Shown: positions 1 to 64,000 of the stretch, in pieces
Numbering within the stretch: position 1 is the first letter of the stretch
Layout: each line of letters starts with the position of its first letter
Assembly: GCA_039096225.1 (NCBI GenBank)
Contig: JBBPEB010000007.1
Coordinates: 434,001 to 498,000 of the forward strand
Source of the DNA: Blastocystis sp. Blastoise
Taxonomy: Eukaryota > Sar > Bigyra > Opalinata > Blastocystidae
Reading direction: 5' to 3'
Length of the DNA stretch: 64,000 bases
Notes under the pieces: generated by a model
What the model saw: only the letters and a program-made list of their open reading frames with translations
What the model was told of the DNA's origin: nothing
The model's database searches: none
Program-made: the position numbers and the translations under genes

Positions 1-1421
1 TTTAAAAGGATATATAGCTTGAATATCTTCTTCATTATATATATATTTATAGAAATAGGATTGTGTATTATTAGGAGTATATCCATCTATAAATACAGAA
101 GAAGAAGGAGATAGAGCAGAAGCAGTAGAAGTGTCTGTTAATATTAAACTCTCTATATATATTATATTTATTATATTTATTATATATATTATATATGTAT
201 ACCTGATTTTTCATGTTTCACAATAGACTATATTTTAAAAAATATATGAATATATCATTTAAATATATATATAGATAAAAATATACATGTGTTTTCCATG
301 TAGAAATTGGACAAAAATAATTAGCATGTGTTGTTGGACTAATAATATATATATATATATTTATGATTACAAAAGAAAAATATAATTTCATAAAAATATA
401 TATATTTATTTACTAATGATATTTAAATAATATTCCCACGGGAACATTCTTTTGAAGACGAGATTTATCTTCAATATTAATAATTAAATTATTATCTAAT
501 GTTGCTGATATAAACTTTAAATGAATTCCATAATTATAATATTGACGTAAAGTAATATGAAACATTAATCGAAATTTTCTATATAGATATATATATTATA
601 TTTATTATTATTATTATTATACTATAAATTAATTAATTTATTATAAAAATAATACATAATAATATAATATACATATTATTATAAGATAATGTGAATTCAG
701 TAACTGTAGGAAAAGATAGAAATTCCATTACCGAGCAAACAGTACTATCAAATATATAATTAAAGAAATCAATATAGTATTCATTATATATATATAAATA
801 TAATAAAAATAAATAATAGGATATTAATTTGTTTATTGTCAAAGTATTCAATTTTGAAAATTCCTGTTTTTAATAATCGCTTTTGAATAATAATTCTATA
901 AAGTGTATATATATATAATATATATAGATAATACATACATAAAAAAACATATATATATATATATATATTTAAAAAAACAAATATATACATTTAAAACATA
1001 TATAGATTTAAAATAAAAAATAATATTAATATAAATACGTTTTTTCTAATGGTTGTGGATATTCATATTTTGTTAGAGAAGTGGATGAGAAATTCTTTGT
1101 AACTAAATCAAACAGAGATGTAGGTTCACCTTTTTCTAGAAGAATAAATCTCAAGTTCATAAGTTAAGATATATATATAAAATTCTACAAATATATTATA
1201 TAACATTAATAATAATAAAAAAAGGATATTTTGCCTTTTATTGGATGATGTTCTAATGTAATATATTTAAATGAAACATTAATCTTCATAGAATCTTGAC
1301 CATTGAAGCAGGAATAGATATTGTTTGTACTCGTTGCTACATCACAATCATCAGGATCTAATGAATTCATAAAATTTAAAAAAATGAATCCTATACCGAA
1401 TTTTGAGCAACTTGCGCCCAT
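1..1421 (-). CDS. Unrecognised multi-exon gene, 3' end outside the window
   Basis: I do not recognise this protein. Eight exons fit (1421-1230, 1154-1039, 895-825, about 778-673, 578-414, 338-287, 227-203, 152-<1), giving 293 codons with consistent phase up to the window edge. It begins MGASCSKFG, a possible N-myristoylation/palmitoylation signal. It is a soluble-looking mixed alpha/beta protein with conserved-looking stretches such as FRLMFHITLRQYYNYG, LIINIEDKSRLQKNVPVG and ANYFCPISTW. A TAG at 413-415 is not the stop: it lies at the join of a GTAAAT donor and is spliced out, after which YPTTHANYFCP continues in phase. Intron 1 and probably intron 3 are AT-AC type. It is divergent from the HERC gene. 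The exon structure is well supported; the function is unknown. Confidence 0.7.
779..824 (-). other. Possible second AT-AC-like intron in the same gene
   Basis: The exon coding EYFDNKQI is followed on the minus strand by ATATCCTATT, and the next exon (YIDFFNYIFDST) follows ...ATGAATAC. No GT donor exists in this exon. With the U12 start at 824 the phase-correct end is ...GAAT. With an AC end (777) the start would be ATCCTATT at 822. Both give the same residues I-N-Y. No good branch-site match is visible, so the class is uncertain, but a non-GT donor is required. Confidence 0.45.
1155..1229 (-). other. U12-type AT-AC intron (intron 1 of the minus-strand gene)
   Basis: Read on the minus strand, the exon ends ...GGCAAA and the intron starts ATATCCTTTT, the canonical minor-spliceosome 5' site. 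Near the end lies ATCTTAACTT, close to the U12 branch consensus TTCCTTAAC, followed 6-10 bases later by the terminal AC (TATGAAC). There is no usable GT donor nearby. Removing exactly this interval keeps phase 0 and joins HHPIKGK to LRFILLEKGE. Confidence 0.8.
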
Positions 1422-2159
1422 TTAAAATTAATTCCAGCTTTTGATATGCTTTTAAAAAGTATGATAAAGATCTAATTTCTATTTCTTTTTTTGAACACAA
1501 ATTTCCCTGATTATTTCTTCATTATCACGAATTAAACACGAAAAAATCAAAAATCCTCACAAAAACGAAAGGCTTAGAAAACACCAAGTTTCTATTTGTG
1601 TTTACATCTTTTTTTCACTATTCATGAATTCATCTGTTAACAAAAATACTCACAATATATGTAATATCATCAAATAAATTTATATAATTTTCTCAAAACG
1701 ATCATTTCGACCCTTTTTGGATTCAACCATTACTATTTCTAGGTTAACTAACTTGAAGCGTATCACAGAAACTCTAAAACATCAACAGAATATCAAAGCC
1801 AATGATATTTATCCAAAGTAATTCAAACATAAAAGATTTTAAAACAACTTGACCTCTCACTCAATACAAACTACCGTTTCACCTCCTGAATCACCTCATT
1901 ATCATCGTTTCTCAAGGCTATATCCGAATAATAATAATAAAAAACAAAAACTTGAATAAAAGAAAAATACAGAAAATTTCTGAAAGAAAATAAAAACACA
2001 TGAGGAACAAAAAAAACTGACTACAAATAAAAAGAAAACTACGGGAAATCAAAAGGGAAATGAAGAAAAAAAAAGAGCAAAGATATAGAATAAATTATTA
2101 TACATTCATAAACGTTTTTTAAAGCACTAAACAAACCTTAAAATATTATTAAAGGCATT
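1422..2159. promoter_or_regulatory. Divergent intergenic region
   Basis: About 740 bp separate the two oppositely transcribed start codons. The sequence is A+T rich, with A-runs on the HERC side (1920-2110), and no coding potential is visible. It must hold both promoters. I see no recognisable factor site. Confidence 0.4.
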
Positions 2160-21824
<19,665 letters not shown>

Positions 21825-25746: not shown

Positions 25747-26433
25747 ATGGCTGCCAATGACGATGTTCATGTACATTCCGTAGAGAGTGATCCAAGCAGA
25801 GAGTTTTCTCCAATGAATGTGTATTATAGATTAGAATCTCCAATTCGATTAACTCCTCCTCCTCCTCCAATGATGAAGACGAAATCAATGAAAAAAACAA
25901 TCATTCTTCCAACCATGTTAAAGAAATCAAACTCTGCAGATGAAATACGAAATGAAACTATGTTAAATAGAAGACATTCAAGACTTATGAGATTATATGG
26001 TCATTATTTAAGTGAAAGTACAGAGGTTATAAATGAAGATAATCCAATTACTGATTCATTCGATATAATTGATGAGTTGTCTCCTGACTATATGTATCCT
26101 TATGAGAGCATAGGTCGTCTTGATCTTCGAGAAAATGATAAGATATATCAAGTATTCATAGATCTTCCAGGAATCAAAAGAAAAGATATAGCCTTAAAAT
26201 TGATCCATAATAGTCTATATTTAGAATGTCATCGATTTGAAGAAGATGATGATCATGAATATACATATACAATAGGCGAACGTCATTATGGTCGAATATG
26301 TCGTAAGATTCCTTTTGAGGAACCAGTTCAAATCGATCAAATCAGTGCTAAATTTGAGAATGGAGTCCTTATCATTCTTGTACCGAAGCGTATAGACATA
26401 GTAACAACAGAAACACCAATTGAAATATCTTGA
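25747..26433 (+). CDS. Small heat-shock protein (HSP20/alpha-crystallin family)
   Basis: A single uninterrupted exon of 228 codons. Residues 1-118 form a long N-terminal arm with a proline run (PPPPPMM) and basic, serine-rich sequence. The alpha-crystallin domain lies at about 119-219: YQVFIDLPGIKRKDIALKL, then strands to KIPFEEPVQIDQISAKFENG and VLIILVPK. The end, PIEIS, carries the I-x-I motif that docks into neighbouring dimers. The family is an ATP-independent holdase that forms oligomers and limits aggregation. The N-terminal arm is unusually long and may set oligomer size or localisation. It is one of the few intronless genes here, which fits a stress gene that must be expressed when splicing fails (inference). 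Confidence 0.93.
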   Translation: MAANDDVHVHSVESDPSREFSPMNVYYRLESPIRLTPPPPPMMKTKSMKKTIILPTMLKKSNSADEIRNETMLNRRHSRLMRLYGHYLSESTEVINEDNPITDSFDIIDELSPDYMYPYESIGRLDLRENDKIYQVFIDLPGIKRKDIALKLIHNSLYLECHRFEEDDDHEYTYTIGERHYGRICRKIPFEEPVQIDQISAKFENGVLIILVPKRIDIVTTETPIEIS

Positions 26434-45191: not shown

Positions 45192-48009
45192 ATGGAAAAT
45201 TTTTACGTTTCTGCAAACGGAAGGTCTGAGTCCATCCCATTGGATGACCCAGATACCTCTTGCGAAATGCTAGCTGATTGCATTGAAGTATTTTCATTTC
45301 TTAAACATCTTTATTATTTGTAGAAACTGTTTAATATACCAGTGGAAAGTCAGATATGGCAATATGATGGAAGAATGATTCCTATTGAAGGCACTTTTCG
45401 TTCACAACGATTTGCACGACAACAAACACTTTTCGTTTATACAAGACAAGTCTCTGATAATCAGGGTGATCCAAATCAAGAAATTACAATTTATGCTCAA
45501 TATGAAGACACCTGTTTGTCATTAGATTGCGTTTTGAATACAAGAATAGAGGAAATTCTTAATTGTTTTCTTTCTGTATGTACAATGAATAATTTGATTA
45601 TTACTTATTATACGTTTTTATTATAGTTATTCTTTGAAAGAGAAATTTTTGTTGATAATCCTTGTTTCGAATTTAATGGTGAATTCCTTGATAATGAAAA
45701 TACACTTGCTGATTATCATATCCAACATAGAGATAGATTAACTATCTTAAATAAACATCCTATTCAATTAGTATGTAAATATATTTTTTTTGTTTATAAT
45801 TATATTTTTAGGAATCTCCAAATCAATATTCTTCATTTAATATGAATATGAATAATATGAATATGAATATGAATAATATGAATATGAATATGAATAATAT
45901 GAATATGAATAATATGAATATGAATATGAATAATATGAATATGAATAATATGAATATGAATTATAATAATATGAATTATAATAATATGAATACTATGTCT
46001 CAATATCCTCCTATTACTATGTCTTCTAATTATAATCGTACTATTCCTATACCTCTGTCTAATCCTTATCCTTCTACTTATATTATGAATAATAATCAAC
46101 AATTACCTACTATGAATAATAATATGTATATGAATAATAATATGAATATGAATAATATGAATAATAATATGAATAATAATATGAATAATAATATGAATGA
46201 TATGAATAATAATAATAATAATCCAAATATTCCAAGTTCTATTCAGCCTATAAATCCTATACAATCCTTACCCTCTCTCTCTTCTCCTCCTCTTCCTCCT
46301 CCTCTTCCTATACCTCCATGTATACCTACTTCTAATCAGACTTCTTCTATTCCTATGCTATCATCACCTATTCATACTAGTAATAATACTAATTATAATA
46401 ATACTAATAATCCTAATTATAATAATAATCCTAATAATAATATACCTTCATCTCTACCTACTTTACCTTCTCTTCCTTTTCTACCTTCACTTCCTATACA
46501 AAACAATATGAATATAAATTCTTCTTCAATTCCAACATTACCACTCAATCAATTTAATTCGAATCCCTCTTTATCCTCTAATGCTGATCATGCCGCTGGT
46601 TCACAATCACGTGACCCAAACGTCATTAACAGTCTTTCAGGAAATAATAATATGAATAATATGAATATGAATATTCCTAATATGAATATTCCTAATATGA
46701 ATAATAATATGAATAATAATATGAATAATAATATGAATAATAATAATATGAATATTCCTAATATGAATAACATTATGAATAATAATATGAATAATAATAT
46801 GAATAATAATAATATGAATATCCCTAATATGAATAACATTATGAATAATAATATGAATAATAATATGAATAATACTATGAATATCCCAACTAATGCCTTT
46901 AGAATTCCTTCTCATCCATCTCTTCCTTTTATGCCGTTTCCTTATTCTATGTCATTTCCTTATTCTCTATCACTTCCATTACATAATCTCTCCTCTACTC
47001 TTCATAACCCAATGCAACTAATGAATCCAAATAATCCTATTATTCCTAATAATATAAATAATATGAACATTCCTAATAATATAAATAATATGAATATAAA
47101 TAATAATATAAATAATATGAATATAAATAATAATATTCCAAATAATTTCAGTTCTACTCCTGAAATGAACTTTAATTCTTCTTCTTCTATTAATATAATT
47201 CCTGATTCAGTTGAAATAATGAATGAAAATGATATAGATAAAGATGACGTATATATATATATATATATATTATTATATTATTATATCTCATTCTATATAT
47301 AGCAGTTTTGTCTCTATACTCATGATAAATTATATAAATTAATTTCTAAAAGTGATTTTAATAATTTGGATGATATTCTAACAGATATACATGTATATAT
47401 ATTTATATTCTTCTTAATTTTTTTTTCTTCTTATTCTTATTATTATTCTATATATAGACTAATAAATCTCTTCCTTATCCTATATATATATTTACTGACG
47501 GTCATCGTATTCAGTCTTTTGAAGAATTATATAATAGTCTTTCTAAGACGATCTCCTTTTATTCTGTATATTATTATTATAGTTTATTCTATATATAAAA
47601 TAATATATTTTATTTGTTTATTCTATATATTTGTTGTATATATATAAACGGATATATTCTATATAATAGTATTATTAAATAGTTTTTAGATAAGTTTTTA
47701 ACATATATATATATAGATATCTTCTATTGAAATGGATTCTATTCACTCTGAAGAACCTTGTTTTGAAGGTATATACTATTTATAATATTAATAATAATAA
47801 TAATAATATAATATATATATAGATGAATGTAATGATAAAACTACTGGTTATTTATGCTTTAATTGTATATATATTATATTATATTATATATATACATATA
47901 TATATATATAATTATTATAGATACTTCATCTTTCCTTTCTGTTGAAGCTATTAATAAATTCCTATGGAACATTCCTAAAGAAACATCTATTCTCTATATG
48001 TCTGGTATA

Positions 48010-48056
<47 letters not shown>

Positions 48057-49966
48057 TAATAATAATAATATAATAATTATGATAAGTAAAATAATGGAAT
48101 AAAATTATTTTATTTATTATTATTATATATATATATATATATATAGATATTAATGATATTAAATATCGATATAAGATATTTATTGATGATAATAATATCA
48201 CGAAATGTATTCCTTATAGTATTACTATACCCCTTTTAAGTATATATATTTATTATTATTAATATAACTATACTATTATTTATATATAGCTACTTTAGGT
48301 ATAGATTTTGAAAAAGAAGAAGAAAAAGAGGATGATAAGAAGATATATATATCATTTCCTTATACTCATCATATTACAACTGTTCATATATCCTGTATAT
48401 ATATTATATAAGATAATATTACTAATAATAATTATAATATTTTAATTCATAAATATGACAATAATAATAGTATACATAATAATATATATATAATAATAAT
48501 AATATATATAGTATTTGAAGATGACGATTTATATGAAGATGCAACTGAAGAACGAGAAACCGTTATAAAACACTATTTAAATTGTTTCCCTAAAGATGAT
48601 AAAATACAGATATTAATTGATCAAAAAGATTATTCTTCTATTCTTCACAGTCTTTCTAATGGTATCATATATGATAATGGTGATACTGGTATATATATAT
48701 ATATAATACTATATAATACTATATACATTTTTATTTATAAAACTATATATATACATTTTTATAAAACTATATATAGGTATATTACTATCAAGAATTCATT
48801 CTAATGATTTATTAATTGAATATCCTCCTGATATATCTATTCTTATTCAATCATCTATTGATAATTCTTCAAAAACATTGATTTCTTCATTATTTTTAGG
48901 AATGAATTCATTTATGATAAATGATCATTTTTATATTCAATCTATATCAAAAAATACTGGATCTAAAAAAGCAAAAACAATTGATTATGTATTTCCTTAT
49001 GTTAAGCAAAATGATGAGAATTCTTATAATATATTTGAAGGTTGTATTTATACTTATTATATTTCGAATATTAAAGATAAAGAAATTACTATTGGTTCAA
49101 CAACAATTATTTGTAAATATAATAATTTAATTATTCATTCAACAGATAGTCAATTTTCTATATTTATGGATTCTATTGAATATATATATCAGCCTTATCG
49201 TTCTATTTCTCCTATACAAAAACGTATTATTCCAACATTTACGGATAATGCTATAAAACGTAATCAATGTGTTGAACAGAGTATTTTAAAAGGTATGAAT
49301 TTATTAATTGAAGGTACAACTTCTTCTGCTAAAACATATACTGTTGAATATATATGTCAAAAATGTCAATTACCTTTATTAAGATTTAATTTCTCTCCTT
49401 CAACTACTCTAGAAGATCTTATAGGTGATTATATTATTAAAACTATTAATGGAAAACAAAAATTAGTATTTTCTGAAGGTCCATTTACTCAAGCATTTAT
49501 TAATGGTTATATATTATTATTAGATGAAATGTCATTAGCAAGAGAAGAAGTAATAGAACCACTTATGGGTTGTTTAGATTCTGAAGAATTATATATAAAT
49601 AAAACATCTGGCTATCAAATATATAAAATGCATAAAGATTTCCGTATTATTGCTACTCAAAATCCTGCTGGTTCTACTTATGAACGTACTAAATTTAATA
49701 ATCGAGTTTTAGATCATTTCAGACTGCTGAAACATCCTGAATTTCCTGAAATGAGTGATGAAGAAATTCAACGTATTTCTGATAATATTTTTATAAATAA
49801 TAATGAGAATAATAATAATGATAATATTGATGATGATGAATTGAAGAATAAGAATAATAATAAAGAGGATATTCATGAGAGTAATGAACGATCTTATAAT
49901 ACTTTTGAAGCTTATGATCAAGCTAAAAAAAGAAATGAGAAGTATAAAAAAGATATTATTGACAAG

Positions 49967-50003
<37 letters not shown>

Positions 50004-50405
50004 GTGATAAAAATAAAAATGAGGGTGATGAAGATATTCTTCCTTATTCTACTTATTCCCGTGAATATACTATTCGTGATTTCACACGTGTATCTTCTTT
50101 ATGTCGTTATATGTCACTTTCTCATGCTTTATCACTTGTATTTTCAAATCCAGAAATAGAATCCTTTAATTGTCCTTCTATTCCTATTACTTATTCAAAA
50201 CAACCTATGTATCCATCTATATGGAATGAATGTATATATAATATTGATAGAGGATTAACTGCAGGAAATCATATTTTAATAGTATCAAAATCTGCATTTA
50301 CATCTTCAACTTATATTCATGCTTATTTAGATTATAAAATGAATCTATATAATAAAAAGAATAAAGAAATGAAAAATAATAATGATTATGATGATAATAA
50401 TAGTG

Positions 50406-50442
<37 letters not shown>

Positions 50443-53400
50443 TAATAATAATAACAATAATAATAATAATAATTCTTCTGAATCATTATTATATTCTATA
50501 CATAATGTGAATACTATATATTGTTATAGTTCATTAGCTACAGATACTTTAGTAGGATCCTATATTATGAATAAAGAGAATCGTAAGAAGCCTATATGGA
50601 AAGATTCTGCTTTATTACAATCAATAACTAATGGTGAAATATGTTTATTTGAATCATTACATTTATTAAAATCAAATGTAATTGAAAGATTAAATTCATT
50701 ATTAGAATTAATTCCTAATGATGGAAATAATCATATTATTCGTTTTGATGAACGTACTATTCAACCTGTTATTACTATTCATCCTAATTTTAGAATTATT
50801 GCTACTGTAGAAGAAAATGCACTTAAACGTTTTTCACCTGCTTTATTAAATCGATTTTTAATTATTAATATAGATGAACAATTAATAAAAGATGAACAAT
50901 TATTTACTGATATTCCTTTTGATAAATATGATTCTAAAATATCGAATCATGATTATAATAAGAATGACAATAATAATAATTATAATATAAATTCTATAAT
51001 TAGTACTGATTCTGATAGTGATTCTAACACTAATTCTGATAGTGATTCAGATAGTGATAATAATAATAATAAATATAATAATAATACTAATAAATATTAT
51101 AATAATAATTCTAGTGATGATTCTTCTAGTGATGATTCTTCTAGTGATAATTATGAAGAAGAAGATTTTTTCTCTTCATTTTTAACAACGAACAAAATAG
51201 ATTTCAGTGAATTTGATACATTTGAAAAAATGAATATTTATAAATTATATAATTTTCTTTCTCAATTTTTAGATGATAAACAAATAAGTAAATATTTATC
51301 TGTATATTTAAAAAGTGATTCAATATCTTCTTTAGAAGATAATATACCTGATATTATTCATAAAAAAGAATATTTTGAATTATTATTTTCTATATGTTTT
51401 AATCGTTGTATAAGTATATATGGATTATCCGAAAGTGGAAAGACTTATTTATTAGATAATATATTATATAATATTCATAATTCAAATCATATAGTATTAC
51501 ATTTATCAAATGATACAGAAATAGGTCAATTATTAGGTCATTATTCTATAGATGGTGAATTTCATGATGGTATATTATTACAATGTATAAAAGAAGGTAA
51601 AGTATTAATATTAGATCAAGCACAAATGATTAATAAAGAAATATTTGAAGAATGTCAACAATTTATGAATCCTTTAATTGATTCATTTATATATAGTTAT
51701 CAAACTATACATATTCATCCTGAATTTAGAATAATATTTAATTATACTACACAATCTATAGAACATTTACCATATATATTACCTGAATATATACAAAGAA
51801 TACCAATTCCTTCGTATACAAAGGAAGAAATTAAATTAATTATAAATGATAAAGATTTAGATTTGATTATAGATAAAGAATCGCTTTCTTTATCATTACT
51901 TTTAAAATATCAAGAAATATATACATATTATTATGAACAATCTCATTTTTCTATTTTATATTATATATTTTTATATTCAAAGAATCCTGAAGAATTATGT
52001 AAATTAAATCCTAAAGAATATTCTATATATTTATCTTTTTGTTCAACTCCAATTACTTATAAAGAACGAAAAATTAATTATTTCGATGAAGGTTATAATG
52101 AAGATGATGATGATTATTTCTTAAGAAGTAGTAATTCTAATATAGATGACATATCAAATCATTTAATTAATAAATATGATGAATATATTACTGATAGTGA
52201 TAGTAGTGATAATGATAGTTATAATAGTGATACTGATAGTAGTGATAATGATAGTTATAATAGTGATAATAGTGATAATAGTGATAGTAGTGATACTGAT
52301 AGTGATTATTCTAATAATTCTAATAATTCTAATAATTCTAATAATTCTAATAATTCTAATAATTCTAATAATTCTAGTGATAGTGACAGTGACAGTGATC
52401 ATTATGTTATAAAGAAAAAGAAGAACTTTTTTGATTCAAAATCATTAAAGAAAGAATCTCTTCAATATAATGCACAAAAAACTCTTGTTACAAAGAAGTA
52501 TTATTATACTTTATCAAAATTAACAATGAATTTAAATATTGTATTATATAAACCTTTAGAAGATGTAAAACAATCATTTCTTCAATTATTATTTAAAGTA
52601 TTATTATTAAAGAAATCATATCCATTATTATTTATTGGTCAATCGGATGAACGTAATAATTTAATTTCTTATCTCTATCCTTCTGTTGAATGTATAGAAT
52701 TATCTCATAGTTTAGAATCATTTCATTTATTAGGTCAAACAACAATTATGAATAATATAGCTCTTAAACAATTATTATTAACATTTAATCATATATTAAA
52801 AGATGAAGATCATCCTTTTTATTCATGGATTAAAAATATAGAAGAAAAATCAAATGATAATAATAATAATCAAACTTCATTATTATTATATCAACCAGGA
52901 ATAGTCTTTAATTCTATATTAAATAATCAAGTTATAATATTAGATAATTTAGATTTATTAAATCATGATACTTATCAACGATTTTTACTTTTATTAAATA
53001 TATCTCCATATGAAGTATTATATGAAGATATGAATGGATCATTTTCTAAAGAAATTAATAATTATTATTCTAAATTAATAGATTCTAATTATAATTATAC
53101 TATAAGTAAAAATCATATATCATTTCCTATTCATGCAACCGTCGATCGATTACATTATAATACTGTTGCTTGTTATCATGATTTCTTCCCTATATATCTA
53201 TATACTACAGAAGATGAAGAATTATATAATAAATATCCTATATTAGAAAAAGTTGATGATTTATTATTATTAACAAATCATCATACAAGATCTATACAAG
53301 AAGGATTAAATAAATATAATATTTCATTAACTATTATTGATATATTACAACAAATTATATCTTCATTTCATAAATTATCTGATTGTTTATATTTCTTAAT

Positions 53401-54029
53401 GAGTTGTTTTACTGATAGTCTTTCTAGAAATACTTTAAATACATTACCTTTTATTCATAATGTTTCTCCTCAATTATTAACATTATTAAAACAAAATAAT
53501 GATAATGAAAATGAAGTTAATGTTAATGATTTATATGATATATTTGAAAAATCATTTATTGATAAAATATGGCCATTATTTAATAATAAAAAATCTACTA
53601 TAAAATTTTATCCTGTAAAAACTATATTAATAATAGGTATTATTATACAATTAGGTAATGAATATAATATACCAACAATATTAGAAGGTGCTCCAGGTAT
53701 AGGTAAATCAGCTTTTGCTATTGAATATTATAAATATAAACAAATACCTTTAGAACGATTTAATTTTGCACCTAATATGACTATACAAGATTTATTTGGT
53801 AGTTATACTATTAATCAATTTAAAGAATTAGATTTTATACCTGGTAAATTAACAACATTTTTAATGTCTGATTCTACTAAACAACATGTATTATTATTAG
53901 ATGAAATTAATTTAGCACCTGTAGATGTATTAGAAGTTATTACTTCTCTTATTGAATATAGTAAAAATACAAATTTAGATTATTATTTAAATAATATTAA
54001 AAAAGATGATGATAATGATGATGATGATG

Positions 54030-54072
<43 letters not shown>

Positions 54073-57000
54073 GAATGATAATAATAATAATAATAATAAT
54101 CAATATAAAAATATATATAAAAATAATAATAAACAAAATAATAATAATTCAGAATATAAATCAACTATGGTTTCTTTACGTAATTATTTCTATATACCTG
54201 GTTTTAAAAAGATATGTTTACCTCCAATGACAATTATATGTACATTAAATCCTGCTATTATGTCTTCTCAACGTAATTCTTTACCTAATTCATTAATACA
54301 GAAATGCTTATTATTTAAAGATATAAGTTATTCTATATCAGAATTAATTTATATTAGTCAACGTATTATTGAAAATGTTGCGAATACATTAGAATCTACA
54401 AAAGATCTATATGAAAAGAATAAAAATAAGAATAATATAAATAATGTTACTATTATTCAATCCAATGAATTTATTAATATTCTTAAAGAATTATTTAAAG
54501 CAAATTTAGAACTTTCTAAAGAATATCGTACACCTTTTTCATTAAGAGATATTCTGAAAGTATCTGAATTAATCTTAAAAGGAAATTTAAATATATATGC
54601 TGCTTTTTGGATTGTATTTGGTTGTAAATATTATGAAAAAGGCTATAAAAGAATTAATTCTATCTTAAAATTAAATTCAATAGATAATATATCTATTCAA
54701 ATCAATTCAAATTTATTAGTCTTTCATGGCCCATGGTCAATTACATTTGATGTCGAAAATAAAGAAAAAGATCCTTTATTATTATCTTCTGAATTATTAT
54801 TATGTTATAAATTAGCATTATCTTATGAGAGTAAACGTACTATTATTTTATATGGTCCTTCACCTTCAGGTAAATCGTATACTATACAAAGATATGCAGA
54901 ATTAATGAAAAAGAAATTAATTCGTATACCATTACATTCTGAATCTTCTTCTTCTACATTATTAGGTGAATTAGAATTATTAGAAGATAATGGTAAACCT
55001 ATATTAAGATTTAGAAATGGACCTTTACCAGATGCTATGGAAAATGGGTATTGGATATTAATTGAAGATATTCATTTAGCTAGTGGTGAATTATTAGAAA
55101 GATTTAATAGTTTATGTGAAGAAAATCCTACTTTTAAATTATTAGAATCAGATGTAGAATGTACTTATGTTAGTAATTTATCGAAAAAGTATTTTATAAA
55201 TGATTTAATAACAAATAAACAAATCGTAAATCCAAAATATGGTAAAAAATTAATACATCCAGAATTTCGATTATTTTTTACATTATCTACGAATAATATA
55301 ACTGTTATTCCTCCACCTTTATTATCTCGTTGTATTATTATTGCTACAGAATCATTATCAAATCAACAATCTATTCAAGAATTATGTTTATTAAAACATA
55401 ATAGTTTTAAACCTGAAAATTTTGGTGAAAAAGAATGTACAAATTTCCGTAAAGCTTTGAATGTAATTGATACAAATGATAAAGAACAATTTAAATTAGT
55501 ATATGATCATGAAATAAATTCGAAGAATAAAGTTATAGTAAGTCTTAATAAATTTAGTAAAAAAGATGACGATTATTCTACATTTTTAACATTATTACAA
55601 TCAAATAAACCAGATATAAATGCATTAAGAGAATGTATTAAGAAGATTATTAAATATTCAATTGATACATTTACGGATCAAGATTATGAATTAATTGATA
55701 AATGTATTTATAGAAATAGAGATAATTTTATTGTATATCCTTTATTTTTAATAAAGAAAACTTTAGAAGAACAGAAAGGAGTGAATATACCTATTTATCG
55801 TCAGAATAATCCATATTATAAACGATTTAAACATTGGTTACAGTTATCTGATTATAATATACCTTTAAAGAATGAATATAAACAAAATTTTAATTATATG
55901 CATCCATTATTATTATCAACAAATAAAAATATTGAATTTAGTAATATATTTGAAATTGAAAAGCCAAATATAAATAGTTTCTTTTATTATTATTTAAAAG
56001 ATGAAATGGATGTATTTTATAATCAAAATACTATAAGAGAACATAAAGTTATATATCAATATATTGAAGAGATTATAGAAAAAGAAAATATTATAGATAC
56101 AAAAAAATATAGTAGTATTATTGGTTGTGTTAGTAGTTTATGTTCTATATATTATAAATATTCTAAACTTAAGAAAGATATTGATGATGCTACTAACAAT
56201 AAGCATAATGAAAAATGTTTTTCTTTATTAGAAGAAATTAATAATTATATTCGAGATATACCAAGAATTAAAAAGGTTTTAGATGAAAATCATATATATC
56301 CAAAAGAATTAACTACATATATTACTGAAATACGTGAAAGTAAAGATAGTTTAGATATGTATTATGATAAAGATACAGATAGTAATACAAAATCAAACCG
56401 AAATAAGTTATTATTAACACGATATAAAAGTAAATTGAAAGATTTTGATCAAGGTGTATCGAGTGGTTTAGACAACATAGAAAAATCAATTAATATAAAG
56501 AATTATTTACCATTTTTTGAAAAACTAAAATCATTCCAAGATAAACTTGATTATAATACGATTAATAATAAAGAATTAAAATTATACTTACAATGTAGTC
56601 ATTTTATAGTATTTTATGAATGGCTAGATAGTCAGAAATTGAATGTAGTTTCATCATTTTATCAATTTTATGATATGTTTAAATCAATTCAATTAAATTC
56701 AGAACAATTATTTATATCTATTGGTGATTTTAAAAATTATTATCCTTATTTAAAACAATATATTAATTATTATATGTCATTATTATGTTCTTATATTACT
56801 ATAGATGATACTATATTAAAACTAATAAAGGGAAGTGATTTATATATACATCAATCTAATGTTAAAGAAGAAGAGTTAATAAAATGTTTATCATTTTTAG
56901 GTAAGCATGATTGTTTATCTATAGAAAATAATAAACGAATTAAATCTTTAAAATCAACAACGAATAAAGAAACAATAAAATCAAATTATAATTTTATTAT

Positions 57001-60000
57001 TAAAAAACAATTTCTAGATACAAGTCCTGTGCCTTTTATAGATATATATAAATCTAAATTATTACAATTAAAAGAATTAATTATTCAAGAAGGAAGTTTA
57101 GATAGTAATTTATTATTATCCTCAGGTAATTATACTTCTGAATATAATACTATAGAAGATATTGAAGAAGGTAAAATATATAATAAAAGAAATTTTGAAT
57201 ATGAACATCAATATAGACATTCTTCTCCTTATAATGAACTTAATGAATTCATTATTAGTACAAATATTAATAATAAAGATAAATTATATTTAATATGTCC
57301 TTATAAGAGAATAAATGCTTATCAAGTTGTTTATTCAATTATAGAAGAATTATTTAAAAATAAAGAGAAAAAGAATTTATTAATAGAAAAATGTAAAGAG
57401 TTGAATGATTTTGATTCGATTATAGAAGATATTGATAATATATATGAAGAAGATTATATAGATAAAAAAGAAAGTAATGAAAATAAACAAATAGCGAATA
57501 AAGACAAGATTCAAAAACTAGAAGAAAATGAGAATAGAATTATTAAAGAATTGAATGATTGTGTTGATACTATTGAAGGAAAAATGGTTGAAAGAGTAAA
57601 AAGTGATGAAGAAGCTAAGAAATATACTCAATCTTTAGAGAATCATAATTCAGTTTTGTTTTTAAATACTTTATTATTTCATAAAGCATTTAATAACACA
57701 ATTAGTACAATAAAATCTTTGGATAATAAATGTATTTCATTTGAAATGATCAAATTTAGTATATACAAGATTCTAGAACATTCTGAAAGGAATTCTTTTA
57801 GATCCGAGAAAAATAATTCCTTTTCTTTTCAAATTGTATATATAACTGTAAGTAAAGAAATAGAATCTAAAAATGATAGTATTCAAGTAACATTGAAGAC
57901 TAAATATAATCATTATCAATCATTATCTTTAAGTTATTCACCTATAGAATTAAAACCAAATAAAATTAATGATGTATTAAATGTTATGGATGAAAAGAAA
58001 GATAATTTTGAATTATCTATTCCTTATATATATAAAAAGAATATGAAGAATTCTGTATATATATTTGTATTACCTTTTTCGACATTTCCAATGAGTGTAG
58101 AAACTAATGTCGAAACTAATATTTCATATTATTATTATTCATATATTATTAATAAAAATGTGCAATCCTTAACAGATAATTTTAAAGATGTTGAAGAAGG
58201 TAATAATAATAATAATAATAATAAACATAAAAAAGGAAAGAAGGCTAATAATAATAAGAAAAAACAAAAACAACAAAAAAACATGATTATTAATGGATTT
58301 GATGAAAGAATTGCTTATGTATTATTATTATTATTAAAAAACTTTTGTATTACTTATACTATTCATTATAAAGTTGAATTTCCTAAGCCATCAATTGATT
58401 TATTGAATCAGTTTTTTGAAAATCAATCTCGTAATTTATCAGTAGATTCTCTTTCTAAACCAAAAAATAAATTTATTTATTTCTTTAAGAAGCCTATAAA
58501 TGATAGTGATTTATCATTATTAATGTTTGAAGCTTATGAAGATAAACAAAATGAAAATTATGGATATATTACTTTTAATTATCAAATATTATATACTATT
58601 TATCAACAAGAACATCCGATCAATAATCAATTAGATGAAGAAGAAAAGGATCAGAATCTTTTATATAAGAATTATCCTTCTTTATTATTAAAAGAAATTA
58701 CTATTATTAATAGTATTTATACAATACAAGTAGATAATAGTTTAAAGAAACCATTACAATTATCAGATTTGATTATTATTACAGATAAATCGGATAATTT
58801 ACCCTATAAACAATATAAATGTAAAGAAAATCAATCTATAAATAAAGAAGATGAACATTATAAAGAATTACAAAAAGATTTTGAAAAGAATAAGAAAGAA
58901 AAAGAAGATTTATTAGAATATAAACAAAGATTAGAGAAAGAAGAAATAGAATTAGTAGAACCAAAACATTTAAGTGTGAATATATTTATTCCTCCAATAA
59001 AAACTATGAAACGTATTTCTGATTCTATTCAATTTACTTTAAAAGATTGTATAGTTATATTAGGAAATAATAATGAAGAGATTTTATTCCCTAAAGATGA
59101 TATATATCATTTACCTGTATTTTTATTAAATTATCATAAACCTAGTATATCTATACCTATAATGAATCCAAAATCATTATCATTATCATTTAAAAGTGAT
59201 GATTGTATTGTAGAATATAAAGAAAATCAATTATATATTACTTATGAAGACAATGCTTTTCATAAAATACGATTAATGCAATCCGCTATTCATATAACTG
59301 TAGAAGAATCATATACAAAAACATTTTTTGTTACATTTTCATTTTCTGATGATGATAAGATTGTTTTTGTTGATAAAGAATGTAGTTGTTTTAGTAATAT
59401 AATAACTGTATCTCCTCAAGAACGTGAAGTTCATTATACATATAAAAATAAAACAGGAGAAATTAAAAATCAATCTTATAATAAAAAGAATAGTAAACCT
59501 CAAAAATATAAATTATTTGATGAATATTATGTTTCTTTTGAAGATACGGAACAGAATTGTAAATATTTTAAAATTAAAAATGGTGAATTTACTCCTTATA
59601 TGAATAGAAAAGATTGTATTAATTATTTATCAATTCCTCCTTCTATAATAAATCAAGTAGATACATTTATAAATAATATTGAATCACATAATATTAATTT
59701 CTATATAGAAGCCTTACAAAGTTTACCTTATCTTTTATGTATACAGAATAATCAAGAGAATTATGTTATATATTATTCTATATATAATTATTTAAAACAA
59801 TCATGTGATAAAAATCTTTATTTACCTTATATAAAGGATATTATTAATACTATAAATACATTATTAACACAGAAAAAGTTATTATCATGGACAGATGCAG
59901 ATTCTATAATACAAGCAAATAAAGAAGATAAAAAGAAACACAAACAAGAAGTTCAACAAATAAAAGAAAAAGAAAAAGAAAAAGAAAAAAAGATTGAAGA

Positions 60001-60191
60001 AAATAAGAAAAAACAAGAATTAAAAGCTAGTTTATTTGTCACTACTTCTACTTATATATCTCCTCAACAAAAAGGAAAAGGACAAACAAAGAATATATTA
60101 AAGAAAGATTTAACAAGTGAATTAAAGAATACTATTAATTTATTTACACCAAAACCTGTTTTGGATGCTTCTTATAATGATATTGATATAG

Positions 60192-60249
<58 letters not shown>

Positions 60250-63200
60250 ATCAATATTAACAGAAGAAGAACTTAAAGAAAAGAAACTTAAAAAGCAAAA
60301 GGAAATAGAATCTATACATGATAATTTACGTTCTATTCAAAGTAATATTGTTGTGGATATGTTTAAGAAATTATCATTAAATAAATATTTTGAAGAATAT
60401 ATATTAAAACGTTGTGATACAGAAGAATGTATAAAACCGAAAAGAATAGAAAAATCAACAATAATTAATATATCAATTGAAAATGATAATGATAATAATG
60501 AAGAGAAATTAAATAATCTTTCATCTAATGAATATGATTCTATATATAAATCAATATTACCTTCATTTATTCATCTTTATGATATAGTTTATTCTTCGAA
60601 ATATATTCAATATGAATCAATACAACATTTATCAATTATTATAGATACAAATCTTTCATTTAAGAAACAAAAATCCAGATTACGTACAATTGAAGCTATC
60701 CTATTGGTTCTTCTTTGTGAAGAATGTCATATTGGTTGTTCTATTTATTGTACAGGTTCAAGAAGTCAAATATTCTTATTAGCTGTTGAAAAAGAATCAA
60801 TTGAAAGTAAAATAACTAAATTGTTTGATTTAGAAAGTATTTCAAAAACACCATCTACTCCTTTAGATTTCTTTGAATATAAGACTATTATTAAAGATGA
60901 TCCTACTAAAAAATATATATTAATAACAGATGCTTTTTCTGAACAATTAATGTCTACAAATACTATTATTAAGGAATATATACAGAAATTATTACCTTAT
61001 TTATATATTATTCATATTATTGGAACACAAGAAGATGAAAAACTTTCTGATAAGAATCAACAATTTATGAATAATCAATTACAATTATTATATAAGAATA
61101 ATCTATATAGTGTACAATCCTATTTAGAGATTAAATCCTATAAGTATCCTGATTCATTTATTCATTTCTTTTTTACTGATAAACTTATTCAATTAAAATA
61201 TTCACAAAAAGTTAGTAAAGATAATAATAATACTATAAAATCAATACCTCTATATAATAATTCACAAATACCTATAGAAGATTATACTATATTAAAATAT
61301 GATCATCAAGGAATAAAACCATTTATTTTACCAGATATTCGTGAAGATCGTTTATTATATATTCCTGAAGTGAATAATGAAGAATTATATACTTATTTAA
61401 ACAGTAAAATACCTGGAGATCTATTTTTTAATGTATTTAATAATACTATATTACAACCCAATAAACCTACTTCATGGGTAGCTTCTACTACAGGTACTAC
61501 TTTACATAATAGTAATTATTTCCGATTTGTATTAACAGGAACAGGTGATGGTAAAATATTTAAAAAGAAAACAGGAAATAAAATAAGAAGTTATTGTGTT
61601 TCTATAGTAATTGATTGCAGTTATTCTGCATTTAATACTATTAATAAATCACATAGTTATAGTACTATATTATTTTTATTAAGAGGTATTAGTGAAATGT
61701 CTATTCCTTGTATTGATATATGGGTTATTAATGATTCTATTCATCAAATAGCTACTGGAATTAATTCGGATCAATTATGGACTGAATCTATCTTATCTAC
61801 ACTTATTTCTTCTTTAGAAAAACCATCTAGAAATACTATTTTATCTCAAGGATTATTAATTGCTTGCTCTACATTAAAAGCAAGATCAGAAAATAGTTTA
61901 TTATTTGTATTCACTAATGGAACAACTATAAAAGGTGAACAAGAATATATTAATTCTATTTTAACTAGAAATGATATTCTTTGTTATACAATAGGACTTG
62001 GTTATTTATTATATAATTATAAAAATATATATCCAACATTTATTTGGTCTGCTAATCCTCATTTATTAAGAGATATTTTTATGAATATTAATATATCTTC
62101 AAATACTATTCGTCCTACTATTGAATGTAAATCATTCTCTATATTTAATCAACTTTCCAATACTATAGAATTATCAGAACAATCTTATGAACCTCATAAT
62201 GAAAATATTATTAAACAAATTAATAATCATGAAGGTATATATGAACAATTAGCTGGTGTTTTTAATATACAATCGATAGAAGAAGGTAATAATAATGATA
62301 ATAAGAATCAATTTGAAGGACAAGAAATGAATACTGATTTTGATTTATGTAGAGATGGATCGTTTAAAGGATTTAAAGTATTATTTGTTATATTATATTT
62401 ATGTAGAAATGAAAGAGATGATCAAGGTCATATTATTGATCCTAAAATTACAAGAGATATATTAATAGAAGGAGATGTAGAGAAAGATTATCGTATGTCA
62501 CCCTGTATTAAATTAGAACAAAAAGGATTTAAAGTTGATATTGTATATGATTATGAAACTGCTTCTCGTTATTTAGAAACAGGTAAATATCGTGTTTGTT
62601 GTATTACATGTAGTCCTGGAGATAAAGTATTACCTGAAAATGATAATAAGATTTATAGTCATATATCCAATAGTTATGGTAGATATGAACAAAATGCAAA
62701 TGGAAAACGTATCAATAATGATTATAAGTTTTTATCATTATTTTTAAATACATTACATCATTTTAATAATTGTGGAGGAGGTATAATGTGGATGTTAGAG
62801 AATTATCCATATACATTTGAAGCAGATATGTATTTTAAATCTTTTGAAGATATTCCACAATTAGTAGATCCAAGAAAAGCTATTCCTGGTGGTAATAATA
62901 TAGTTAGAGATAAAAGTGGTATTAAGAATAATGCTACTGAACCAGGTACATATATACAAGTAGGTGGTGATGTAATAAGAAATAGTACTCAAGCAGTTAT
63001 TCAATTAGATGTCGGATTAACTACTATTTATGAAGGTAAAACATTAGCTGCTATGAGTGAAAGTGCATTAATTAATAGAGGATTCTTTGTTTTTGCACGT
63101 GATCATGAAGGAAATCCTTCTATAATGATTCGTGAAGATTCAAATCGTCATAGTAATAATAATGATGGTACTCATAAAGGTAGAGTTATTATTGATAGCG

Positions 63201-64000
63201 CTGCTTCTAAATTATTCTTAGAATTCGATACTATAGGTACATGTCGTTGGATATCCAATAGTTTTGCTTGGTTAGAAAATGTTGAAGAATATATACTTGC
63301 AGGTGCATCTGTTTTACCTAAAACACTCGATATGAATAGAAATATTCGAGAAGTAACTACAGATATTCCTTATGAAGAACGAAGATCTTCAAAATCAGCT
63401 AATTTTGTATTAAGTATAATTGTTGATTGTACAGGATCTATGCAAGGAGAAATTGATGGTGTTAAATATAATATTGTTCGTGCTATAGAACAAGTTGAAG
63501 ACTATAAAAAGAAACATGCTTTATCTTCATGTGAAATATTAATGCAATTTATGGGTTATCGTGAAATAGAAGCACTACATCATAATCATCCAGATCGTTT
63601 CTTCTCTGAAATTAAAAATAATAGTTTTGACATTCAGAATTATTTATATAGTGTTCAAGCTGGTGGTGGTTCATGTTGTTGTGATTTAGAAGGTGGATTA
63701 GAAGATGCTGTTGATAAAGTTATTAATAAATATCCTTCTCCTGAATATGTCCATGCTTTTATTATTATTGGTGATCAACCCTATCATGGAGAACAATATG
63801 GATGTAGATATTCTAATCATCATCCAGTGACTGGTCAGTCTTATGATCATGTATGGAGAAATGTGAGTAATAAATTAAAACAACTTGATGCTTATGTATA
63901 TTTTATTCCTGCAAGAAATGAAGAAATGTTACCATCATATGAAATATTGCGAAAAGCTTATGATCCTACACATGTGTTCAAAACAAAAATGTCAAGAGAT
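45192..64000 (+). CDS. Giant tandem-UBL, six-AAA+, triple-VWA protein (midasin-like), incomplete at the window end
   Basis: Thirteen exons (45192-45287, 45324-45575, 45627-45770, 45812-47248, 47303-47392, 47458-47565, 47717-47768, 47823-47864, 47921-48004, 48147-48239, 48290-48394, 48512-48688, 48777->64000) give at least 5,968 residues. The last exon exceeds 15.2 kb without a stop. Residues about 30-75 and 100-165 are ubiquitin-like (LFNIPVESQIWQYDGRMIPI; ENTLADYHIQHRDRLTILNK). A Met/Asn low-complexity region follows, then six AAA+ modules (about 1070-3100), a long linker with Lys/Glu coiled coil, and three VWA-like domains. This resembles midasin (Rea1/Mdn1), the ribosome-assembly remodeller, in order and scale, but midasin lacks N-terminal ubiquitin-like domains and triple VWA. 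True function is not established; RNF213-like or a new family are alternatives. Confidence 0.85.
45842..45970 (+). repeat. Met-Asn repeat (ATGAATATGAATAAT)n
   Basis: Nine or so 15-nt units coding M-N-M-N-N, continuing in degenerate form at 46110-46215 and 46648-46890 with inserted IPNMN units. It lies directly after the second ubiquitin-like domain. The reverse strand reads as a His-Ile repeat without meaning. Confidence 0.95.
49260..55370 (+). other. Six AAA+ modules of the giant protein
   Basis: AAA1: GTTSSAKT (Gly before Lys replaced) and YILLLDEMSLA. AAA2: degenerate Walker A (SKSAFTSST) with a 40-residue Asn insert, then RFSPALLNRF. AAA3: intact GLSESGKT, Walker B VLILDQAQM. AAA4: degenerate (GQSDERNN), VIILDNLD. 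AAA5: fully canonical GAPGIGKS and VLLLDEINLA, with sensor NP in LNPAIM. AAA6: GPSPSGKS and ILIEDIHLA, with LSRC. Walker A positions are about 49312, 50280, 51430, 52640, 53693 and 54857. The spacing and the DE(I/M)(S/N)LA style are those of midasin/dynein AAA_5 rings. ATP hydrolysis is most likely at AAA5, possibly AAA1 and AAA6. Confidence 0.85.
52312..52376 (+). repeat. (TCTAATAAT)n coding Ser-Asn-Asn
   Basis: Seven 9-nt units between Ser/Asp-rich segments (52190-52400) in the loop between AAA3 and AAA4. The flanks are GATAGT-type Asp-Ser repeats, a likely phosphorylated acidic linker by composition only. Confidence 0.9.
60620..64000 (+). other. Three VWA-like domains and an intervening Rossmann-like segment
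   Basis: VWA1 (about 60620-61020): HLSIIIDTNLSF, partial MIDAS, then KYILITDAFSE. VWA2 (61590-61990): SIVIDCSYSAF, a full D-x-S-x-S, then SLLFVFTNGT. VWA3 (63400->63960): SIIVDCTGSMQGEIDGVK, D-x-T-G-S, then GGGLE-like GGLEDAVDKVIN and FIIIGDQPYHG. Between VWA2 and VWA3 (62350-62860) FKVLFVILYLC, YRVCCITCSPG and NNCGGGIMWMLENYP resemble a flavodoxin/class I amidotransferase-like alpha-beta fold without an evident catalytic triad. Domain 3 has the best metal site. The open frame is still running at the window end. Confidence 0.75.

Follow-up and report, generated by a model that had tools for sequence, protein, structure and literature searches.

The analysed window is a stretch of 64,000 nucleotides from the genome of Blastocystis sp. 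Blastoise, in which we found a single predicted gene that starts at position 45192, reaches its stop codon at 64072 and would encode a product of 5,991 residues from 13 exons (forward strand, like all features given below). The reading frame is open over 5,968 codons up to the window end at 64,000, and extension along the contig, which the original prediction had called for, closed the chain after 23 more amino acids with a stop at 64070-64072. All 12 introns have the form GTAT...TAG, and an Rfam scan and a tRNA scan of the window gave no matches. From its N-terminus, the chain comprises two ubiquitin-like domains (UBL1 and UBL2), a spacer, six AAA modules, a linker, the domains VWA1 and VWA2, an unannotated domain and VWA3. 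The spacer exon, rich in Asn, Met and Pro, contributes 479 amino acids (171 N, 62 M; 45812..47248), and further downstream a pre-AAA region (47921..49213; the exons from 47921 and the start of the 48777 exon) is common to the paralogues P0001 and P0002. A stand-alone UBL-UBL protein is known elsewhere in the genome (C3:1538k, with no family match within the next 5 kb), which would fit an annotation artefact, that is, a separate UBL-UBL gene directly upstream of an AAA6-VWA gene; we regard this as very improbable, as the 13 exons contain no stop, their splice sites are consistent, UBL exons also lie upstream of the ring at C3:822k, and the same fusion occurs in P0001, which is one GenBank protein (WA158_005327, contig C21). 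P0001 is collinear with the window chain from residue 1 (27% over residues 1-163, E 1.7e-19; 46% over 751-1409), and about 300 residues between spacer and ring can be aligned (31% over 751-1040 with P0001; 28% over 746-1036 with P0002). At the level of sequence, the domain architecture is confirmed as real, and the ubiquitin-like domains and the AAA ring would indeed be parts of the same chain.

UBL1 (residues 1-76; 45192..45455) is encoded by exon 45192-45287 and the start of exon 45324-45575, and UBL2 (residues 85-164; 45480..45770) by exons 45324-45575 and 45627-45770. Pfam ubiquitin matched UBL1 at 0.0053 and UBL2, which can be aligned with ubiquitin, at 0.0014 (Rad60-SLD 0.00085). When copies from the window, C21, C3 and C25 genes were taken singly, all six that were aligned matched Pfam ubiquitin at E<=1 (best 0.0013), under the curated cut-off wherever a cut-off was shown; UBL1 and UBL2 of the window jointly reached 32.5 bits and exceeded the cut-off of 25.4. 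UBL1 matched the family UBL profile, which was constructed in part from UBL1 itself, at E 5.3e-29, and against PDB the profile found a polyubiquitin of nine units at 3.7e-61 as well as natural chains of one ubiquitin from 1.3e-6 onward. These profile matches to ubiquitin argue for the two N-terminal ubiquitin-like domains that had been proposed. A third ubiquitin-fold domain (residues 644-709; 47303..47565, exons 47303-47392 and 47458-47565) is tentative, and we rejected it as an established one: the match to Pfam DCX (0.0029) is a hint only, and hhalign to the UBL profile was negative. Pfam NLE (PF08154) had no match in UBL1 or UBL2 and matched at two other places only in the genome, which contains Ytm1 and one further NLE-type gene. 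Altogether, the 33.3 Mb genome holds at least 17 AAA1-bearing genes, and the UBL pair was detected in 3 of 17 (window, C21 and C3), the same three that have the highest AAA1 identities (100, 80 and 71%, the others 33-52%). VWA3 was not found in the C3 giant, and a short copy on C25 has UBL1 and VWA3 but no AAA module.

Six AAA modules with midasin-style Walker B motifs had been predicted; the six modules are present, but a Walker B motif in all of them proved too generous. Canonical Walker A and Walker B (DE) sequences occur only in AAA1 (49259..49876; GTTSSAKT, LLLDE) and AAA5 (53633..54316; GAPGIGKS, LLLDE). AAA2 (50234..50896) and AAA4 (52583..53236) are without a P-loop, AAA3 (51368..51976) combines Walker A GLSESGKT with LDQ at Walker B, and AAA6 (54800..55426) combines GPSPSGKS with LIED. 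With AAA1 and AAA5 as its only canonical modules, the window chain does not follow midasin, where, according to the available part of PMC6286127, AAA2-AAA5 are functional ATPase sites and Walker B is lost in AAA1 and AAA6. AAA1 is of the AAA_5, MoxR-clade type, with CbbQ, NorQ and CobS among its PDB matches; the one NCBIfam match, to CobS, scored 38 bits where the cut-off is 559 and reflects plain AAA similarity. The six slots could be aligned across 15 of the 35 family sequences, which were the 15 used. In a tree of 78 modules, for which 8 of the 35 family members and 5 of 30 midasins were sampled, the odd slots of the family and of midasin fell on one side of a branch (98/93), so that both share the odd/even alternation, with the exception of Blastocystis slot 3, which grouped among the even slots. 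Its placement with the odd slots was rejected (AU p 0.034), as was family slot 3 as a single clade (p 0.018), and for slots 1, 2, 4, 5 and 6 slot-by-slot orthology with midasin was neither established nor rejected (AU p 0.09-0.39). The hhalign slot matrices were set aside as orthology evidence: family against midasin, the same slot scored best in three of six cases (slots 4, 5 and 6), and Blastocystis against parabasalids, the diagonal was best for slots 1, 2 and 4 (3/6), barely and by column only for slot 5, and not for slots 3 and 6.

The linker (55427..60613, approximate bounds) spans about 1,730 residues by these bounds, in agreement with the predicted figure of about 1,700 and with the length in midasin. 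It is followed by VWA1 (60614..61126; DTNLS ... ST ... TDA) and VWA2 (61457..62086; DCSYS ... T ... TNG, with a KIW-type lead), the family profiles of which matched the midasin MIDAS domain in hhalign at 81% (E 1.3e-5) and 96% (E 1.2e-9, 158 columns), respectively, compared to at most 0.2% for linker controls; with Blastocystis rows alone, the match fell to 12% for VWA1 and 59% for VWA2. Pfam had no match on VWA1 and matched no VWA family on VWA2. The lead motif reads GKIFKKK-IRSY in VWA2 and DKIWLRR-KRxY in midasin, and VWA2 is, judged by its sequence profile, related to the MIDAS domain of midasin. Its motif nevertheless departs from the midasin DxSxS-T-(S/T)DG: the window reads DCSYS-T-TNG, the three UBL-bearing giants have DCSYS, DCTQR and DCSYN, and TNG replaces TDG in all three, a change also seen in UBL-less members. 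VWA1 in the same giants reads DTNLS, DLNVS and DVNVS, with ST and D. VWA3 (63398..64000 and the 23 amino acids to the stop; DCTGS ... GD) matched Pfam VWA_4 at 0.0011, under the cut-off, and is of a different type from VWA1 and VWA2. Of the expected C-terminal VWA domains with MIDAS motifs, there are three, and two of these match midasin MIDAS; the MIDAS relative, VWA2, has an altered motif and is not terminal. Between VWA2 and VWA3 lies the unannotated domain of about 300 residues (62342..63292), with a central GG motif aligned in 34 of 34 rows. Pfam and PDB sequence searches with it gave no significant match, and pattern matching over contigs of prokaryotes and viruses yielded 120 and 71 matches, none of which tblastn confirmed. 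By eye only, the domain resembles GATase1-like domains.

The C-terminal MIDAS domain of midasin grips the ubiquitin-like domains of Rsa4 and Ytm1, and the ring pulls both off pre-60S particles. For the window chain, it had been proposed that the UBLs act as a built-in pseudo-substrate or autoinhibitor, gripped by the chain's own MIDAS-type VWA in such a way that the ring is held idle or two molecules are linked. Both partners are present in one chain, VWA1 keeps a near-MIDAS motif in all three UBL-bearing giants, the C25 copy retains UBL1 and VWA3 without the ring, and in three of seven UBLs acidic residues adjoin the position of the binding Glu. However, MIDAS binding requires an acidic residue, E80 in Ytm1 and E114 in Rsa4 (PMC6624252, in its available part), and all seven aligned UBL1 and UBL2 copies have Q, N or R at the position of Ytm1 E80; the Glu is retained in Blastocystis' own Ytm1. 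Together with the altered VWA2 motif, the loss of the binding Glu argues against the UBLs as a ligand of their own MIDAS domain. VWA3, which had been suggested as the partner, is not the MIDAS relative, and we therefore rejected a UBL-VWA3 pairing as a midasin-like contact. Moreover, C3 carries UBLs in a chain with no detected VWA3, 14 of the 17 members have no detected UBL, and the UBL-less P0006 and P0007, the full proteins of which were read, keep the VWA1 and VWA2 regions. We thus consider self-gripping unlikely; autoinhibition via another interface is conceivable, but nothing in our analysis points toward it.

Outside Blastocystis, we found parabasalid members, TRFO_17377, TRFO_31156 and TVAG_476450, all annotated as 'hypothetical protein'. 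These giants have the same six slots, VWA2 and the unannotated-domain motif as the window chain but, unlike it, no UBL was found in them; in the wider group some members have an N-terminal kinase, and several either lack VWA3 or have a different type of domain there. Pkinase was found at the N-terminus of P0052 and P0059 (2 of 2 scanned), which are metagenomic and belong to a parabasalid-like group. In the open-access literature searched we found no description of the family, consistent with the suggestion that it may be undescribed: 'Midasin-like protein' appears once, in a table, in PMC9896827, the available part of PMC5608401 has no VWA term and uses 'AAA' for Pex1/Pex6 only, and that of PMC7159879 mentions neither Blastocystis nor Trichomonas. 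The available part of the latter does describe bacterial MoxR-vWA pairs with variable effectors. AAA_5 and VWA also occur in the window chain, and the family's variable N-termini would correspond by analogy only to the third, variable component of these ternary systems. Kinase and UBL N-termini on chains encoded by so many genes would suit a fast-evolving, multicopy surveillance or conflict family that senses or remodels invader or host proteins through swappable signalling N-termini. Recent copies have pN/pS values of 0.70-0.89 against null means of 0.96-1.18 (four of six close-copy pairs compared against the null, non-UBL members only), yet values this high also fit relaxed constraint after duplication; dN/dS between diverged paralogues was saturated and was dropped. 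As no effector domain was recognised and the single PADLOC match, to mad8, covers a P-loop stretch (1.5e-5), we hold a surveillance role to be possible but doubtful.

As the original prediction had advised, we looked for a separate canonical midasin and found it on C34 (8.1e-189 to PDB midasin, ring and linker collinear; its MIDAS motif was not found within the 30 kb examined), and since it is present, we rejected the window chain as a midasin orthologue. The family is multicopy alongside it, and the window chain further differs from midasin in having three VWAs and an extra domain and in carrying UBLs itself. The midasin AAA lid families PF17865 and PF17867 had no Pfam match at E<=1 in the window chain but are present in the canonical gene. 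An accessory midasin that strips alternative UBL factors from pre-60S would agree with the MIDAS-related VWA2 and the midasin-like ring; with the canonical midasin and Ytm1 both retained and a different pattern of active sites, such a specialist role in ribosome assembly seems to us quite improbable. NorQ-NorD, RavA-ViaA and CbbQ-CbbO combine MoxR-type AAA and VWA as the window chain does and are thought to remodel clients, but these bacterial couples are separate small proteins, in contrast to six AAA and three VWA domains together. RNF213 is not known to have a VWA domain, and it has an E3 module, which was not recognised in the window chain (Pfam matched no E3 family within residues 1-173, 644-900 and 895-5968). 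Otherwise it is likewise giant, has a core of six AAA modules that resembles dynein, and is linked to ubiquitin, as described in the available part of PMC7311170.

Taken together, and with a probability that we put at roughly 0.55, the window chain is a remodelling ATPase of the midasin type, divergent and contained in a single chain, in which the N-terminal targeting module can be exchanged; its ring and head are deduced from sequence. AAA1 and AAA5 would hydrolyse ATP to move the linker, and the VWA head would sit on the ring, as it does in midasin and NorQD, and pull or twist a bound client. The N-terminus would choose client or location; it is a pair of UBLs in one clade of Blastocystis and a protein kinase in some parabasalid-like members. 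Most likely, the UBL pair would serve as a handle for docking, either to a receptor of ubiquitin or UBLs or to the VWA of a partner, and not as a ligand of its own MIDAS domain; that the short C25 copy keeps UBL1 with VWA3 would suit a UBL-VWA3 link and counts against the handle role. More speculatively, and in our view with rather low odds, the family could be a eukaryotic counterpart of the MoxR-vWA systems, built into chains of 6,000 residues, in which the MIDAS-UBL contact has been rewired and UBLs in cis, on the short motor-less copy and on the stand-alone UBL-UBL protein form a network on VWA1 or VWA3 instead of on the former MIDAS. If true, this would be an expanded, fast-evolving family of anaerobic protists whose interchangeable N-termini (UBL pair, kinase and others) direct a motor derived from midasin.

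Midasin is usually regarded as a solitary, essential motor of ribosome assembly. The AAA6-VWA giants of parabasalids and of Blastocystis, a protist that is very common in the human gut, suggest that its motor plan was copied and re-aimed. The family may serve as a set of natural experiments to show which AAA slots have to be functional and what role extra VWA heads play, it also informs how the MIDAS-UBL contact evolves once key residues change, and for proteins labelled 'hypothetical' a domain map is now available.

Extension of the contig past position 64000, as the original prediction had proposed, closed the reading frame of the giant gene that begins in the window at 45192. The predicted gene has 13 exons, running from the ATG at 45192 to a long exon from 48777, and each of its 12 introns begins with GTAT and ends with TAG. 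Its frame contains 5,968 codons without a stop up to the window end, and the contig DNA beyond, which overlaps the window end exactly, adds 23 residues before a stop at 64070-64072, such that the gene extends 72 bases beyond the window. The window spans C29:434001-498000 of the genome of the stramenopile Blastocystis sp. Blastoise (Opalinata), which comprises 33.3 Mb in 34 contigs. Elsewhere in the window, consecutive frames at 9429-18959 encode RCC1 repeats, MIB_HERC2 and SPRY domains, with weak matches to BTK and UBA-like domains beside MIB_HERC2; these are possibly exons of a single giant HERC2-like gene. An Hsp20/alpha-crystallin domain (E 4.7e-12) is located at 25747-26433.

The two N-terminal ubiquitin-like domains that had been read from the sequence were confirmed. 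UBL1 (residues 1-76) and UBL2 (residues 85-164) singly match Pfam ubiquitin below its curated cut-off of 25.4 bits, which they exceed jointly at 32.5 bits. All six UBL copies collected from four genes match Pfam ubiquitin at E<=1, with intron-spanning joins made by eye in two of them (C3 UBL2 and C25 UBL1, named after their contigs), and a profile of the six retrieves ubiquitin throughout the PDB. Searched against 65 proteins, this profile detected P0001 (WA158_005327) and the window protein, both of which had contributed rows to it; none of the remaining 63 gave a convincing match, the best domain among them reaching an i-E of 0.86 (midasin P0031). A third domain, UBL3 (residues 644-709), is proposed tentatively. 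The presence of UBLs and ring in one chain was likewise borne out, since the same order recurs in P0001, a GenBank protein from contig C21 that opens with this UBL pair and stays collinear with the window protein as far as its end, and UBL exons lie upstream of a ring at C3:822k. The available sequence of P0002, which lies on a metagenomic contig of 8.7 kb, starts by eye at the end of the UBL3-aligned stretch of P0001.

Using AAA1 of the window gene as query, we found at least 17 family genes in the genome, together with the separate canonical midasin whose presence the original prediction had left to be checked. Open frames of 4,429-5,515 codons, figures that are lower bounds, were seen in 15 of the 17. 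UBLs were found at three of these AAA1-bearing loci (the window gene, C21 and C3:825k), which are also the top three in AAA1 identity (100, 80 and 71%; remaining family genes 33-52%). No UBL was found at the remaining family loci by genome search, at C8 (two), C25:926k, C26 and part of C16:713k by profile searches of locus DNA, or in the annotated Blastoise proteins P0006 and P0007. A short copy at C25:9k (L011, C25:8336-12733, close to a contig end) runs from UBL1 through an unannotated domain to VWA3, with AAA absent, and might be either a remnant or a short form that still functions. At C3:1538k (C3:1531.5-1539.7k; L041, L045), UBL1-UBL2 is followed by a long Pro/Ser/Asn-rich tail, with no AAA match and no family match within the next 5 kb, and this stand-alone protein is a possible partner in trans. 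Four recent copies outside the UBL clade (two on C8, one each on C25 and C26; 82-94% identical) have frames open over 4,818-4,913 codons. In four of their six possible pairs, pN/pS was 0.70-0.89 against means of 0.96-1.18 under a null that used the substitution spectrum of the pair concerned, with 20 replicates per pair. Three of the four fell under the null range and C8a-C26 within it (0.89; range 0.85-1.13), a pattern that fits either weak constraint or diversification and does not tell the two apart.

Three protein searches yielded 34 members of the family (P0001-P0009, P0040-P0064) and 30 proteins that are named as midasins or contain the lid family PF17867 of midasin (P0010-P0039). Among the family members with a named source, four are from Blastocystis (three Blastoise, one B. 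hominis) and the others from the parabasalids Tritrichomonas foetus (3), T. musculus (2) and Trichomonas vaginalis (1), and the other 24 of the 34 were placed by similarity only (Blastocystis 4, parabasalids 20). Because only proteins of comparable length that share exact words with the query can be retrieved in this way, the taxon range is possibly wider. In the metagenomic proteins P0052 and P0059 of the parabasalid-like group, a protein kinase is fused to the N-terminus of the AAA6-VWA chain, and in P0061 of the same group a kinase is indicated by a precomputed label. UBLs are one among several N-terminal options of the family.

Six AAA modules with midasin-style Walker B motifs had been described, of which the six stood and the motifs did so only in part: the P-loop positions are alignable across 15 family sequences including the window protein, but in the window protein Walker B reads DE in slots 1 and 5 only, LDQ in slot 3 and IED in slot 6, and is absent from slots 2 and 4. 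This differs from Rea1, for which passages of PMC6286127 describe functional AAA2-AAA5 and no Walker B in AAA1 and AAA6. When 78 modules, from eight of 35 family sequences and five of 30 midasins, were placed in a tree under a mixture model, all odd modules of family and midasin share one side of a 98/93 branch, with the exception of Blastocystis slot 3 (four proteins), and the family odd slots cluster together (98/91), apart from same-numbered midasin slots. Pairing of family and midasin modules by slot was tested for slots 1, 2, 4, 5 and 6 and rejected for none of them (p 0.09-0.39). Family slot 3 as a single clade (p 0.018) and all odd slots as a single clade including Blastocystis slot 3 (p 0.034) were both rejected, which may be a long-branch effect.

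For the VWA domains, profiles were drawn from 23 of the 34 family rows (11 were left out, with VWA1 or VWA3 missing or of another type) and from 24 of the 25 midasins tried. VWA2 aligned with the MIDAS domain of midasin along 158 columns (96%, E 1.2e-9), and VWA1 did so more weakly (81%, 1.3e-5). Neither VWA3 (4%) nor the unannotated domain (0.07%) matched, and controls with a midasin linker block stayed at or below 0.2%. With Blastocystis rows only, the matches were weaker (VWA2 59%, VWA1 12%, VWA3 0.2%). The VWA2 alignment takes in the midasin lead DKIWLRR...KRxY, with GKIFKKK...IRSY as its counterpart in the window protein, and VWA3 is similar to Pfam VWA_4. Blastocystis VWA3 domains carry Cys-rich loops (GGGSCCCDLEGG in the window protein, about residues 5851-5874), possibly a metal site; many parabasalid-like members have a GGGDGPEDW-type sequence there, and P0006 and P0007 have lost the DxTGS motif from VWA3. 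Between VWA2 and VWA3, the central motif of the unannotated domain of about 300 residues is alignable in all 34 rows; the domain has no significant match in Pfam or PDB and is reminiscent, by eye only, of GATase1-like domains.

The original prediction further suggested that the UBLs, tethered to the same ring, could serve as a built-in pseudo-substrate, autoinhibitor or dimerisation device. In midasin, as passages of PMC6624252 describe, an acidic UBL residue, Ytm1 E80 or Rsa4 E114, serves the metal as its sixth ligand. At the position aligned with Ytm1 E80, the four UBL1 copies have Q, Q, N and N and the three UBL2 copies R, Q and N, so that none of the seven is acidic; Blastocystis Ytm1 itself keeps Glu. 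Acids adjoin this position in three of the seven (window UBL2 at +1, C25 UBL1 and C3 UBL2 at -1), and a shifted ligand is therefore possible. In the three giants that bear UBLs, the VWA2 motif is DCSYS, DCTQR and DCSYN, and TNG replaces TDG in all three, as in P0003, P0004, P0005, P0008 and P0052 (TDG in P0006 and P0007). VWA1 of all three has D-x-N-x-S, with ST and D retained. The C3 member has UBLs without VWA3, because its frame stops after the unannotated domain and VWA3 was found neither in the next 1.7 kb nor by genome search. Taken together with UBL1 and VWA3 occurring without a ring on C25, these sequence features argue against the textbook MIDAS-UBL contact and leave VWA1 or VWA3, through a new interface, as candidates.

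The observation behind the original prediction stands and its interpretation was half right: the window gene is a member of a divergent midasin-type family, not midasin itself. For MoxR-type rings and their VWA partners, passages of PMC13036017 (on NorQD) and PMC9976466 propose that a VWA finger in the ring pore twists and stretches a linker, and in passages of PMC11603028 the Rea1 linker swings toward the ring-docked MIDAS domain. The parts of such a motor are present in the chain, and we infer its movements: by analogy, the window protein would go through a NorQD- or Rea1-like cycle powered by slots 1 and 5, and the N-terminal module, which varies among members, would select the client or the place of action.
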